DNA of 44,082 nucleotides from a virus: positions 1 to 44,082 of IMG/VR virus record IMGVR_UViG_3300005347_000203; one strand, written 5' to 3'. Below, in pieces: positions 1 through 44,082 of the stretch. Position numbers and translations under genes: made by a program. The notes beneath the pieces were generated by a model. It worked only from the letters and a program-made list of their open reading frames with translations, did no database searches and was not told the origin of the DNA. Positions within the stretch are counted from its first letter, which is position 1. Each line of letters begins with the position of its first letter.

Positions 1-1365
1 GTGACCTCGCCCTACCCGCACGGCATCTCGCTCGGCGAGGCGACCCGCACCTGGGGACGCATAGCAGCGCTCAGCTTCGGCGGGCCCGCCGGGCAGATCG
101 CCGTGATGCACCGAATCCTGGTCGAGGAGAAAAGGTGGATCGGCGAGACGCGTTTCCTGCACGCGCTCAACTATTGCATGATGCTGCCCGGTCCCGAGGC
201 ACAGCAACTCGCCATCTATCTCGGCTGGCTGCTTCACCGGACCAGGGGCGGGCTCATCGCGGGCGCGCTGTTCGTGCTGCCCGGGTTCCTCGCCATCCTT
301 GCGCTGAGCTTCGTCTATGTTCTTCTCGGGACAGTGCCGCTGGTCACCGGACTCTTCTTCGGGCTGAAGGCGGCGGTGCTCGCGATCGTCGTGCAGGCGG
401 TGGTGCGCCTCGGCGCGCGCGCGCTGCGCCAACCGGTGATGCGCGCGATCGCGGTGATGGCCTTCCTCGCCATTTTCCTGCTTGATGCCCCCTTCCCGCT
501 GATCGTCCTCGGCGCGGGGCTGACCGGCTGGCTCGGAGGGCGCAGCGGCAACCGCGCCTTCGCCTCAAGTGGCCATGACGACGCACGAGGCTCGCTTTTC
601 GCTGACCGGCACGCCGCGCTCGGGGAAGCGTTGCCCGATCACGCCCGGCCGGGGCTCCGCTGGTCGCTCGGGATCGGCGCCACGATGTTGCTGCTCTGGC
701 TGGGGCCCGTGGCGGCGCTCGTACTGCTGCTCGGACCCGATAATGTCTTTGCCCGTATCGCCGTCTTCTTCGCCGAGCTCGCGATGCTCAGTTTCGGCGG
801 CGCCTATGCAGTGCTTGCTTATGTCGCGCAGGAAGCGGTGCAAACGCTCGGCTGGTTGCGACCGCAGGAGATGCTCGACGGACTGGCTATGGCCGAGACG
901 ACCCCGGGGCCGCTGATCATGGTCGTTCAGTTCGTCGGCTTTCTCGCGGCGTTCCGTCACGCCGGCCCGCTGGAGCCGCTGCTGGCCGCCAGCTTGGGTG
1001 CGGTCCTGACCTGCTGGGTCACCTTCCTCCCCTGCTTCCTCTGGATCTTCGCGGGCGCCCCGTTCATCGAGCGCCTGCGCGGTCATGCCGCACTTTCCGC
1101 CGCGCTGACCGCAATCACCGCCGCCGTGGCCGGCGTGATCCTCGACCTCGCGCTCTGGTTCGCGATCCACACACTCTTCGGTGCGGTCCACACGCTGCGA
1201 TTCGGGCCGATCGCCCTCGATCTGCCGATATGGAGCTCGCTCGATCCCGCCGCCGCGGCGCTGGCAGCCGGCGCCGCCATCGGCTTGTTCCGGTTCAGGC
1301 TCGGGGTCCTTCCCGTGCTTCTCGGCTGCGCCGCGGTCGGCGCGATCTACCGATTGGTCGGCTGA
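1..1365 (+). CDS. chrA: ChrA-family chromate efflux transporter
   Basis: The 454-residue product is an inner-membrane protein of the CHR family, which exports chromate. It shows the two homologous halves of long-chain CHR proteins. The N-terminal half has FGGPAGQIAVMH followed by WIGETRFLHALNYCMMLPGPEAQQ. The C-terminal half repeats the pattern with SFGGAYAVLAYVAQEAV and GLAMAETTPGPLIMVVQFVGF. Hydrophobic segments run along the whole protein. Translation begins with GTG at the first base of the window, so the true start could lie upstream. The gene lies outside the prophage and is the only host gene visible; it ends 58 bases before the tRNA-Gly remnant. Family assignment is secure. Chromate specificity is family knowledge, not seen here. 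Confidence 0.93.
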   Translation: MTSPYPHGISLGEATRTWGRIAALSFGGPAGQIAVMHRILVEEKRWIGETRFLHALNYCMMLPGPEAQQLAIYLGWLLHRTRGGLIAGALFVLPGFLAILALSFVYVLLGTVPLVTGLFFGLKAAVLAIVVQAVVRLGARALRQPVMRAIAVMAFLAIFLLDAPFPLIVLGAGLTGWLGGRSGNRAFASSGHDDARGSLFADRHAALGEALPDHARPGLRWSLGIGATMLLLWLGPVAALVLLLGPDNVFARIAVFFAELAMLSFGGAYAVLAYVAQEAVQTLGWLRPQEMLDGLAMAETTPGPLIMVVQFVGFLAAFRHAGPLEPLLAASLGAVLTCWVTFLPCFLWIFAGAPFIERLRGHAALSAALTAITAAVAGVILDLALWFAIHTLFGAVHTLRFGPIALDLPIWSSLDPAAAALAAGAAIGLFRFRLGVLPVLLGCAAVGAIYRLVG

Positions 1366-1423: not shown

Positions 1424-1463
1424 GCGGGTATAGCATAGTGGTAATGCTCTAGCCTTCCAAGCT
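1424..1463 (+). other. attL candidate: 5' half of tRNA-Gly(TCC)
   Basis: The 40 bases from GCGGGTATAGCATAGTGG to CTTCCAAGCT match the 5' half of an alphaproteobacterial glycine tRNA. The half acceptor stem GCGGGTA, a D-arm with GCAT/ATGC, and an anticodon arm with loop CTTCCAA (anticodon TCC at 1456-1458) are all present. After GCT at 1461-1463 the sequence leaves the tRNA consensus: the second half of the anticodon stem is cut to three pairs, and no T-arm, acceptor 3' strand or CCA follows. I read this as the host-phage junction left by the tyrosine integrase, with crossover in the anticodon arm. Confidence 0.72.
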
Positions 1464-1476
1464 CCCGCGAATGACG

Positions 1477-1521
1477 GATTTCCGGGCCTTTCGCTGTAAA
1501 ACGCCCCGATTTCCGGCCCTT
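1477..1521 (+). repeat. 14-bp direct repeats next to attL, possible integrase arm sites
   Basis: GATTTCCGGGCCTT (1477-1490) and GATTTCCGGCCCTT (1508-1521) are nearly identical, in the same orientation, and begin 31 bases apart. They lie just inside the prophage, 14 and 45 bases from the tRNA junction. Tyrosine integrases of lambda type bind short arm-type direct repeats beside the core, and the placement fits that role. No protein-coding explanation was seen, because the first credible start codon is further on at 1607. Confidence 0.45.
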
Positions 1522-40983: not shown

Positions 40984-41198
40984 ACGTCGAAACGCCCATC
41001 AAAGGCCGGCGCGCCTATCCGGGTAAGGTGGCGATCCGCCATGTCGTCCAGGCGGCGCGCGATCTCGGCCTTGACGTTGCCGGGATCGAAGTCACCCTAG
41101 ACGGCACGATTCGCGTGATCGAGGCGCGCGCCGTGCCGCAGCCCACCACCGGCCCGCAATCGCTGTTCGACCAGCTCGAAGCCGAAGGGAAGATATGA
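40980..41198 (+). CDS. small integrase-linked protein, possible directionality factor
   Basis: The 72-residue product begins MNVETPIKGRRAYPGKVAIR and contains HVVQAARDLGLDVAGIEVTL, then DGTIRVIEARAV. Short proteins of this pattern occur beside integrases in alphaproteobacterial prophages. Overlaps of four bases with the genes on both sides place it in the int operon. Excisionases often sit here, but no clear winged helix is seen, so this is only a candidate. Confidence 0.58.
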   Translation: MNVETPIKGRRAYPGKVAIRHVVQAARDLGLDVAGIEVTLDGTIRVIEARAVPQPTTGPQSLFDQLEAEGKI

Positions 41199-42298
41199 GC
41201 GACGTTGAGGGCGTCCACTTCGTCCGCATCGCCAAGCCCGGCAAACCGATCCGCTGGTATGTCTATGCCTGGCGCGGCGGTCCCTGCATCCTCAAGGCCG
41301 ATGGGCCGAACAAGCCGAAGCTCGACGTCGCCGCCATCGCGAAGATCGCCGCCGCCCAGACCAAGCAGAACGCGGCCCCGCCCGATCTGCTTTACGCGAT
41401 GATCCGCGATTGGCAGGCCAGCCCCGAATGGAAGGCTCTCGCCAAGTCCACCCGCGATCTCTGGGGCGGCGAGCTGGATCTGATCGAGGCCAAATGGGGC
41501 AAGCTGCCGATCGCGCTCTGGAACGATTTCCGCATGGTCGCCAAGGTCGTCGCATGGCGCGACAGCCGCGCCGCCACGCCACGCGCGGCCGATCAGGGCG
41601 TCAACGTTCTGGCCGAGTTGCTGAAGTTCGGCAAGCTCCGCGCCCGCGTGAAGCTCAACGTCGCCGCCGACGTGCCCGCCATCTACCGCGCGGCCGATCG
41701 CGCCGAGATCATCTGGACCGAGGACGATCTGGCGCGGGCCGAGGCCGCCGCGAAGAAACTCAAACGCGAAAGCGCCATGGACGCGATCCGCCTTGCCTGC
41801 CTGACCGCCTTCCGCCGCGCCGATCTTGCCGCGTTGACCTGGGATGAAGTCAGCGAGACTTCGATCGTCCGCACCGCCCTGAAGAAGAGCCGGGGCCGCC
41901 GCCGCCGCGCCGTCGTCCCGGTGATCCCGGCGCTGACCGAGCTTCTGGCCGAGCTGCGCAACCGGCCGCGCAAGGAAGGCGTGAACACGGTGCTGGTGAC
42001 GAAGCGCGGCACGCCCTGGCAGCCGGCCAGCCTGACCGAGGCCGTGATCGCGATCGCGAAGGAAGCGAACATCGTTCAACCCGCCATTCCTGCGTTGGAC
42101 GCGCCCGAGAAGCGCAAGCACCTCCACGACTGCCGGGGCACCTTCGCCACCCATCTCTGCCGCGCCGGACTGTCGAACGACGAGATCGCCCGGATATGCG
42201 CCTGGTCGCCCGAAAGCGTCGAACGCATCCGCCGGACTTATGTTGACGACGCCGCCGTTGTGGTGGCGTTGAGCGAGCGGATCAGGCGCGTCCTATAG
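41195..42298 (+). CDS. int: tyrosine integrase
   Basis: The 367-residue product has the catalytic C-terminal domain of tyrosine recombinases. Its landmarks are LACLTAFRRADLAALTWDEV with the first Arg, a lysine-bearing RTALKKSRGRRRRAVVPVIP, HLHDCRGTFATHLCRAGLSN with HxxR, and CAWSPESVERIRRTYVDD with the nucleophile Tyr near residue 355. The N-terminal part (about 1-170) should bind arm and core sites. It ends the rightward operon under repressor control. By inference it made the junction in the tRNA-Gly gene. The next gene is convergent and ends five bases away. Confidence 0.94.
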   Translation: MSDVEGVHFVRIAKPGKPIRWYVYAWRGGPCILKADGPNKPKLDVAAIAKIAAAQTKQNAAPPDLLYAMIRDWQASPEWKALAKSTRDLWGGELDLIEAKWGKLPIALWNDFRMVAKVVAWRDSRAATPRAADQGVNVLAELLKFGKLRARVKLNVAADVPAIYRAADRAEIIWTEDDLARAEAAAKKLKRESAMDAIRLACLTAFRRADLAALTWDEVSETSIVRTALKKSRGRRRRAVVPVIPALTELLAELRNRPRKEGVNTVLVTKRGTPWQPASLTEAVIAIAKEANIVQPAIPALDAPEKRKHLHDCRGTFATHLCRAGLSNDEIARICAWSPESVERIRRTYVDDAAVVVALSERIRRVL

Positions 42299-42303
42299 GT
42301 CGA

Positions 42304-42771
42304 TTAAATGAGCTTGAGATCCTTGACCGCAACATGCTCCGAATAGACATCGAGCGCGAGCGCTTCGAGAAGCTTTACATCATCATCCGAGAACCGGCGA
42401 AGTTCAACATGGCCCTCGTTGGGGCCGTCCGGGGCGTGGACGATCCTAATCGCCTTGCCATGCGCGTTCGCCGTCTCACGCGTCAAGCCCGCCTGACCGA
42501 TCGCGAAATACGCTTTCGTAGCTAGCTTTTTGTCATCGAGGCTGTCTCGAAACGCGGAGGCCGCGATGCCCAATGTCTCAGCTGACTTGTCGCCGTAATA
42601 TTCAACCCAAGTCAGCGAGAGGTGGCCCTTGTCAGCAGCCCGGATCTCGAAAGCCTTGTTGGTGATCCCAATGAACTCGCCGGTATCGGGGTCTCGCACC
42701 TGCCGACCAAAGGGCACATACCGCATCAGACTATGGTCGTCGGCAACATTTCGCTTCGGTCGCCTAGCCAA
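42304..42771 (-). CDS. right-end cassette protein C, conserved unknown
   Basis: The 155-residue product has a pattern that recurs in a widespread unknown family: RYVPFGRQVRDPDTGEFIGI, AFEIRAADKGHLSLTWVEYY, KAYFAIGQAGL and IRIVHAPDGPNEGHVELRRF. No catalytic motif is evident. The start used is TTG at 42771, overlapping the upstream stop; an ATG 15 codons later (MRYVPFG) is an alternative. It is the last gene of the leftward cassette, convergent with int. Base composition is lower in GC than the rest of the prophage. Confidence 0.65.
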   Translation of the reverse strand: MARRPKRNVADDHSLMRYVPFGRQVRDPDTGEFIGITNKAFEIRAADKGHLSLTWVEYYGDKSAETLGIAASAFRDSLDDKKLATKAYFAIGQAGLTRETANAHGKAIRIVHAPDGPNEGHVELRRFSDDDVKLLEALALDVYSEHVAVKDLKLI

Positions 42772-43363
42772 GCTTGAACCACGTTTCAGGCTTGAAACCC
42801 TGGATGTTCGCCATCAATCGCGCGCTCGAAGTCGTGCCTGCCGCCCGCTCGGTAGCGTCGCCTTCCTGGCGGCTGATGACCCACTCCACGCTATCGCCGG
42901 GCCGGAATTCGATCGTCAGGCGATCGCGGCCCGCCAGCCAGATACCTAGCAGGTTACCCGATGCCGACAGCGCTAGCGAGGGTTTGGAGGAACCATCAAC
43001 AGTCAGCATGAAGCGAATGAACGTCTTGTAGCTTTCTAGATTGAGCGGCAGATCCGCACCAAACCACTCGTCGCAGTCATGGAGAAGATCAAGCTGCCGA
43101 AAATAGCGGTCGCGAGTGGCGAGATTCATGTGCATCGCCACCTGCGCCGTCCATACCTTGGCGTCAGCCAGGGCCTTGAACACCCGCTCCTGTAGCGACG
43201 GCGGAGAAGCCGGGGTGCCACCACGAAATGTATGGCGGTCGTCAATGAGGCCCGAACGCAAGATATCGCCAGCTGACAATCCTGATCCGGCCGAGCTTGA
43301 CGAACCCAGCTTCACACGGCGCTGCAACGCGTTGCTTGCAAACTCGTGAAACTCAGGTCTCAC
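42764..43363 (-). CDS. right-end cassette protein B, unknown
   Basis: The 199-residue product begins MRPEFHEFASNALQRRVKLG. It has a central acidic/aromatic region (YFRQLDLLHDCDEWFGADLP) and a beta-rich C-terminal half (GNLLGIWLAGRDRLTIEFRP, then VEWVISRQEGD). I recognise no family. It overlaps the TIGR04255-type gene by ATGA and protein C by a few bases, so the three are translationally coupled and probably function together. Confidence 0.65.
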   Translation of the reverse strand: MRPEFHEFASNALQRRVKLGSSSSAGSGLSAGDILRSGLIDDRHTFRGGTPASPPSLQERVFKALADAKVWTAQVAMHMNLATRDRYFRQLDLLHDCDEWFGADLPLNLESYKTFIRFMLTVDGSSKPSLALSASGNLLGIWLAGRDRLTIEFRPGDSVEWVISRQEGDATERAAGTTSSARLMANIQGFKPETWFKLG

Positions 43364-44082
43364 TTGCCGAAAGCCTCCCTAGCCTTGTCCGTAATGGACG
43401 TTTCGAATGCTTGGTTTTTCACGTCGCGCATCTCTTCAAGCTTGGCGAAAATTTCGTCAAGCTTTATCGGAAGTGTGCCGCCCGCGATGACATCGATATC
43501 AAGCAAGAAGGCGCCAGTGTTCGGAAGCACTTGCTCGGCCGTGGCAGACTGCAAAATCAGCAAAAGATCTTTGGCCACGATTTCGTGCTCGAACCGCCAG
43601 CCGTAATTCAGAACCGCAGGATATATTTGGGGTACGCGGATGTTCACCGCAAGGTAGCTCTCATATTGGATCCTGCCGTCTACCTCGGCCGGAATATCGA
43701 ACCTGTTGATATATCTCACGCCCATGCGGACCAGCTTGCGCCGGCCAAAAACATCCAGCAGCGCTTCGTAATCCCGCTTAACCCGCGCGATAAATTCGTC
43801 CCAGCCTTGATAAGGAGCCAGCCTCGTCCAGAGACACATGCCAGGCTCAATTATGAAGGCGTCGGCTTGGTCATCCGACGCGAGCTTGGATTGGGGCGAG
43901 TCCTCGAATTCAGCACTTCGGCTCAGGACGTTGATTTTGGCTTGGACGTTCAAAAGATCGGTAGTTGCTGGATAGAATCTCTTGAGGCGCCCGACAGCCT
44001 TCCGCATTTTCGCAGCCGGCAGGGGCTCTGCGAACACGAACTGGACTATCGCCTCCACTATCGGCGGCGCCACATAAATCAT
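43360..44082 (-). CDS. right-end cassette protein A, TIGR04255 family
   Basis: The 240-residue product begins MIYVAPPIVEAIVQFVFAEP, matching the family start (PP-hydrophobic-VEA-...-F). It continues through YQGWDEFIARVKRDYEALLD, VRMGVRYINRFDIPAE and LLDIDVIAGGTLP, all expected landmarks of TIGR04255. The family is sporadically distributed in bacteria and mobile elements, with unknown function. The ATG is the very last codon of the window, so the start fits the family, but the promoter lies outside. The gene overlaps protein B by ATGA. Confidence 0.82.
   Translation of the reverse strand: MIYVAPPIVEAIVQFVFAEPLPAAKMRKAVGRLKRFYPATTDLLNVQAKINVLSRSAEFEDSPQSKLASDDQADAFIIEPGMCLWTRLAPYQGWDEFIARVKRDYEALLDVFGRRKLVRMGVRYINRFDIPAEVDGRIQYESYLAVNIRVPQIYPAVLNYGWRFEHEIVAKDLLLILQSATAEQVLPNTGAFLLDIDVIAGGTLPIKLDEIFAKLEEMRDVKNQAFETSITDKAREAFGK

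Follow-up and report, generated by a model that had tools for sequence, protein, structure and literature searches.

The three small overlapping genes at the right end of the window, the 44,082-bp stretch of viral DNA analyzed here, appear from their sequences to be mobile lysogenic cargo. Within a prophage at a tRNA-Gly gene, they lie between the integrase gene (int) and the attR arm, and they belong to a modular class of operons that carry a protein of the TIGR04255 family. Anti-phage activity would be the most likely role of this trio, and we give that reading about an even chance. The system and the modular grammar of its class appear to be new, whereas prophage cargo that is probably defensive is a known kind. 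The genes concerned are the following:

41195..42298, plus strand, tyrosine integrase (int) of the prophage (Phage_integrase, E = 7e-13; phrog_1 integrase, 2.5e-25)
42304..42771, minus strand, gene C, 155 aa, TTG start
42764..43363, minus strand, gene B, 199 aa, GTG start
43360..44082, minus strand, gene A, TIGR04255 protein, 240 aa, ATG start at the very last bases of the window

The cassette and int are convergent and only 5 bp separate the end of int from it, as an earlier note, made from the letters of this DNA, had indicated in placing the trio beyond int. That note had also described three leftward genes overlapping by ATGA or a few bases. The three leftward, overlapping reading frames are indeed there, but the 4-bp overlap of A and B reads GTGA, not ATGA; the overlap of B and C is 8 bp long. 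The lower GC content it had remarked on was borne out: A, B, and C have 54%, 60%, and 57% GC against a window mean of 65%, and the trio as a whole, at 56.7%, falls below every stretch of equal length sampled elsewhere in the window (minimum 57.9%). None of the three frames is broken, and their third-position GC is of the coding type. Many of their residues are invariant across distant bacteria; in the alignments the conserved residues of A include R119, R123, N126, D195, and D197, and R17, S52, W55, E57, R109, and H121 are invariant in C. A scan of the region upstream of A did not find a sigma-70 promoter consensus.

The assignment of A to TIGR04255 is secure. It scores 115.7 bits (cutoff 30; E = 3e-33) over profile positions 4–252 of 252 and is therefore a full-length member. 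B, which the earlier note could not recognize, has no accepted match in Pfam, NCBIfam, PHROGs, or PADLOC, and the same is true of C. The claim that C matches a widespread family is therefore unsupported by these libraries, although a conserved family of C proteins is present in other genomes. No known toxin or antitoxin domain was found in A, B, or C with any of the four collections.

It is useful to establish where the prophage ends. The window is a complete IMG/VR record (IMGVR_UViG_3300005347_000203), which stops on the first base of the start codon of A. Because both ends of the record coincide with gene starts, the right end probably reflects trimming rather than the limit of the prophage. 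In a second record, IMGVR_UViG_3300005841_000131, the sequence matches the window at 99.99% identity over 8.9 kb and extends 312 bp past it. This extension carries an intact tRNA-Gly(TCC) gene (locus L004:28-101) 212 bp to the right of A, and with it the boundaries of the element can be read as follows:

1..1365, plus strand, host flank left of attL: chromate transporter gene chrA (Chromate_transp, E = 4e-68; 71% identical to Sphingobium ChrA)
1424..1463, plus strand, attL core: 40 bp identical to L004:62-101, the 5′ half (first 40 nt) of the tRNA-Gly(TCC) at attR
1494..1503, plus strand, putative integrase arm-type site CTGTAAAACG, beside attL, by motif positions
window-equivalent 44294-44333, attR: direct repeat of attL, outside the window and read from the second record

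The only other copies of CTGTAAAACG lie beside attR, at window-equivalent positions 44239 and 44251, one of them with a single change. Put more generally, the ten-base motif CTGTAAAA[C/T]G is present at 1494, 44239, and 44251 only, that is, beside both attachment sites. This is the position expected of integrase arm sites, and we infer that the motif probably serves as such. Since attR lies to the right of A and is a direct repeat of attL, the cassette is inside the prophage. Together with the putative arm sites, attR rules out the alternative that the cassette is host DNA beyond the prophage. An attR to the left of the cassette, which the earlier note had named as a finding that would tell against its proposal, is likewise ruled out by the tRNA-Gly repeat. 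The bacterium that carries the prophage is sphingomonad-like, as is the chrA gene. The att core corresponds to the 5′ half of the tRNA gene, whereas the 3′ end is the more usual choice. Once the prophage is integrated, the complete tRNA-Gly at attR is preceded by phage-side DNA and is divergent from the cassette.

Cargo slots of prophages and genomic islands commonly adjoin the integrase gene or the attachment site. Three prophages with related integrases show that the slot of the window is of this kind. In one (L164; int 76% identical), tRNA-Gly follows int after 114 bp and the slot holds no cassette. Its alignment with the window stops at the end of int and restarts at window-equivalent position 44236, so that the difference between the two prophages corresponds almost exactly to the cassette and its upstream region. 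In a second (L166; int 56% identical), the same slot before tRNA-Gly is filled, in the same orientation, by a different TIGR04255 trio (L166:7135-9450), whose members are a relative of A (E = 1e-14), a protein of HTH-like type, and one that bears a "TQSCDI" motif. In the third (L167), the slot holds a 373-aa gene (L167:7104-8225) that is unrelated to the cassette and has no Pfam match. The cassette thus lies between the att sites and is missing from a related prophage, as is characteristic of prophage cargo (a moron). It resembles the accessory operons of other int/att slots, which are empty or replaced in relatives, and differs from them in that its content is not a recognized system. Hotspots of defense islands have been the subject of previous studies (PMC10121019, PMC12629846).

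The trio is not confined to this prophage. A, B, and C occur in the same order and direction, and overlapping, in nine other genomes (L013–L017, L112, L113, L038, and L178). A scan of genome contigs with the TIGR04255 alignment returned 12 loci, 5 of which have homologues of all three genes with the order kept and with similar overlaps; their hosts are two Betaproteobacteria, one member of Hyphomicrobiales, one Nitrosomonas, and one member of Acidiferrobacteraceae. The reverse searches agree. Used alone against 398 Pseudomonadota genomes, the C profile gave four matches, one already known and three new, and all three new ones have A and B just upstream. The B profile, run alone against 350 genomes, recovered a trio already known, a further full trio that was new, and a B–C pair with another first gene; a first genome scan with B, which reached close relatives only, had found no relative. 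At one locus, B and C homologues are preceded by a first gene of 219 aa (L179:456-1115) whose profile shows no relation to TIGR04255. Overall, the trio is present in about 1% of the sampled genomes. Thus, B and C homologues do co-occur with TIGR04255 genes, the partnership that the earlier note had proposed to look for. The trio is one real, conserved operon that recurs more often than by chance; we read it as a horizontally mobile accessory operon, found intact in unrelated bacteria.

When viral contigs were scanned with each of the three genes singly, and with the C alignment, the near-identical record was the only match, so the exact trio is rare in phages; tblastn searches of phages with A and C gave no phage match. 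The corresponding searches of plasmids with A, B, and C yielded one distant TIGR04255 gene and a solo C on Rhizobium plasmids. Such a C, with neither A nor B, was found only on two Rhizobium gallicum plasmids (L007:5935-6465 and L008:5935-6465), where it is near nif genes and adjoins a DUF433/VapC pair.

A survey of TIGR04255 itself places the trio in a larger class. It found 32 genes in 30 of 398 genomes, or about 7.5% of the sampled Pseudomonadota, and most of these genes head three-gene operons. Partners were grouped by inspecting by eye the genes that follow and from their profile matches, so the counts are approximate: about 14 of the 32 have partners of the B–C type (6 like those in the window and 8 of a more distant type, here B′′–C′′), in about 6 the partners are an HTH gene plus a Cys-Asp-motif gene, in 5 a short gene plus a different Cys-Asp-motif gene, and in 2 the third gene is HEPN-like. 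In one further TIGR04255 operon (L019), the third gene matches Pfam HEPN (E = 1.3e-5), and the third genes of L103 and L108 resemble that HEPN protein with remote similarity (E = 2.6e-4). In this third gene, the sister operons resemble HEPN ribonuclease systems. C of the window differs, having no Pfam match and aligning with the L019 HEPN protein over 8 residues only in hhalign. Before our work, TIGR04255 (NCBIfam sporadTIGR04255) was a family annotated without function, whose model is silent on partners. The B–C partnership, the exchange of partners, and the mobile context are what is new. In the open literature searched, which leaves out most subscription papers and preprints so that absence there is not proof, we found no mention of TIGR04255 and no description of the system, in keeping with the earlier proposal that it is an undescribed one.

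Several of the chromosomal copies are small islets. A tRNA gene lies within 600 bp of the operon at 6 of the 32 TIGR04255 loci, whereas control regions, taken mostly from these genomes, give an expectation of 2.9% (P = 3e-4). At three loci an att-like repeat of the tRNA 3′ end lies beyond the opposite end of the operon, with 2 of 45 (L035), 1 of 45 (L106), and 11 of 45 (L111) mismatches; shuffled versions of the same tRNA fragments never gave fewer than 18. One of the three (L106:8411-14820, the same island as L067) is a 6.3-kb island bounded by tRNA-Arg repeats, which carries a TIGR04255 trio and an integrase-like gene assigned by reading the sequence, not by family search. The other two occupy the same chromosomal site (recJ, tRNA-Glu) and hold two different B–C types, each flanked by tRNA-Glu 3′-end repeats. 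These repeat-bounded copies are small integrated islets. Most copies are in bacterial chromosomes with no visible phage, some in islets with little else. Most trios of the window type sit between housekeeping genes rather than in defense islands, many of them alone, as small islets would.

The neighborhoods bear on another check proposed in the earlier note, whether TIGR04255 genes cluster with known defense genes. In an unbiased count, 125 PADLOC models were matched among 117 neighbors and 72 among 117 controls, which is weakly above the control level. There are individual cases: one locus lies between HsdS and HsdR (L022), one beside a type I methyltransferase and S subunit (L012), and one beside GmrSD (L039), and AbiE was a further such neighbor.

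A more specific link to defense is provided by PDC-M32, a candidate system in PADLOC. Searched directly against PADLOC, A, B, and C give no match at E ≤ 1, and the trio falls outside the PDC-M32 models. Two B′′-type proteins and one C′′-type protein, on the other hand, match PDC-M32A (in its C-terminal part) and PDC-M32B weakly. Profile comparison with hhalign completes the chain: B resembles B′′ (1.4e-4) and B′′ the C-terminal part of PDC-M32A (3.5e-9), while C resembles C′′ (1.8e-5) and C′′ resembles PDC-M32B (2.5e-7). Pairs with no expected relation gave 0.03–0.9, except for two adjacent parts of one protein at 0.007. The B protein of L179 matches both the B and the B′′ models. Thus, the last ∼110 residues of PDC-M32A are distantly homologous to B, in its C-terminal domain, by way of the B′′ group, and PDC-M32B to C by way of C′′. 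Over its first ∼250 residues, PDC-M32A shows no relation to TIGR04255 (hhalign E = 0.16–0.26), which rules out PDC-M32A as a TIGR04255–B fusion. The two systems also differ in organization. PDC-M32 has two genes and the window trio three; of four full-length true PDC-M32A genes, three (L058–L060) are embedded in a type I restriction–modification operon, flanked by HsdM and HsdS, whereas the cassette lies between int and attR with no restriction–modification gene beside it. The relation is therefore one of two distantly homologous domains and not of direct membership. At one further locus (L066:3853-6311), an AAA_21 ATPase gene, and not a TIGR04255 gene, precedes a B′′–C′′ pair. Because PDC-M32A and this ATPase also go with relatives of B and C, the B–C pair seems to be a module able to act with more than one kind of first gene.

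Structure prediction offers a view of the first gene. The AlphaFold2 model of A, built from 14 aligned sequences, has a pLDDT of 90.4 and a pTM of 0.86, and its elements run beta-alpha-beta4-alpha followed by a similar second half. Its top Foldseek matches among solved structures are TATA-binding proteins (TBPs; E = 1.6e-5 to 6e-4, probability ∼1). The TM-scores of these matches are low (0.25–0.43, with an rmsd of ∼11 Å), and the fold assignment therefore rests on topology and local similarity. Against BFVD, A matches an unnamed viral protein with TM-scores of 0.50–0.57; a sequence search of A against solved structures found nothing similar. A is thus predicted to be a doubled TBP-like domain with a different arrangement of its halves; the order of its predicted secondary-structure elements fits the doubled beta-alpha-beta4-alpha topology of TBP-like proteins, which include TBP and the N-terminal domain of RNase HIII. 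In RNase HIII the TBP-like domain binds DNA–RNA hybrids, and relatives of RNase LS carry such domains in fusion with HEPN (PMC3710099). For C, the model (pLDDT 51) is too poor for use. Borderline sequence matches of B to DNA polymerase IV (E = 0.03) and of C to a ribosomal protein (E = 0.04) among solved structures are implausible and were set aside.

The case for defense is contextual and draws on the exchangeable slot, the tRNA-bounded islets, the type I restriction–modification neighbors of some loci, the distant homology of B and C to PDC-M32, the HEPN genes of sister systems, and the predicted TBP-like fold of A. Against it stand the weak excess of PADLOC matches near TIGR04255 genes, the location of most trios of this type among housekeeping genes, and the negative PADLOC result for A, B, and C themselves. 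If the defense reading is right, the trio would block superinfection of the lysogen, probably through abortive action. The doubled TBP-like domain of A may serve as a sensor, binding some nucleic acid or nucleotide that arises in the course of infection; B would be an adaptor linking A to C, and C would carry out the response or control it.

Two other roles would also explain a mobile operon of this kind. First, the genes could be an addiction or maintenance module, similar to a toxin–antitoxin pair, that stabilizes the prophage and the tRNA islets, with any phage resistance a by-product. Small overlapping genes in mobile islets bordered by tRNA repeats are what such a module would look like, sister systems have a HEPN third gene or an HTH second gene, and a PemK/MazF toxin gene lies downstream of one TIGR04255 locus. 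However, three genes are co-conserved here and not two, none of them carries a known toxin or antitoxin domain, and C stands on the Rhizobium plasmids with neither A nor B. We consider this role unlikely, though deserving of some weight. Second, a lysogenic-conversion operon, serving counterdefense, the regulation of lysogeny, or a host fitness trait, would be at home next to int and attR. C has a weak, below-threshold similarity to Antirestrict PF03230 (E = 0.22), but its score of 12.1 bits is far from the gathering cutoff of 25, and an antirestriction role for C was rejected on this score. Most copies, moreover, are chromosomal with no visible phage, some in nearly bare islets; we consider lysogenic conversion unlikely, slightly more so than the maintenance module. 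Finally, the trio could be passenger DNA in decay, a relic of imprecise excision or transposition that now has no role. This would match the unphagelike composition but is highly improbable given three intact frames with coding-type third-position GC, many residues invariant across distant bacteria, and an order preserved in nine other genomes.

The anti-phage reading of the trio may extend to the whole class. TIGR04255 may mark widespread, unrecognized modular three-component immune systems, each combining a TBP-fold sensor with an exchangeable adaptor/effector pair (B–C, HTH plus Cys-Asp-motif, HEPN, or others). Such systems would be spread by prophages and tRNA-targeting islets and would share the B–C pair with other first genes, such as PDC-M32A and the AAA_21 ATPase. 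We offer this generalization tentatively, at somewhat less than an even chance. TIGR04255 in any event gains a genomic grammar: operon partners, a mobile context, a slot that is empty or otherwise filled in relatives, and a predicted core fold. Its function is directly testable, since the operon is small and matched cassette-free relatives are available. The PADLOC candidate PDC-M32 is joined to a larger class through the domains of B and C. PDC-M32 has also been reported in a Sinorhizobium prophage (PMC12429752).
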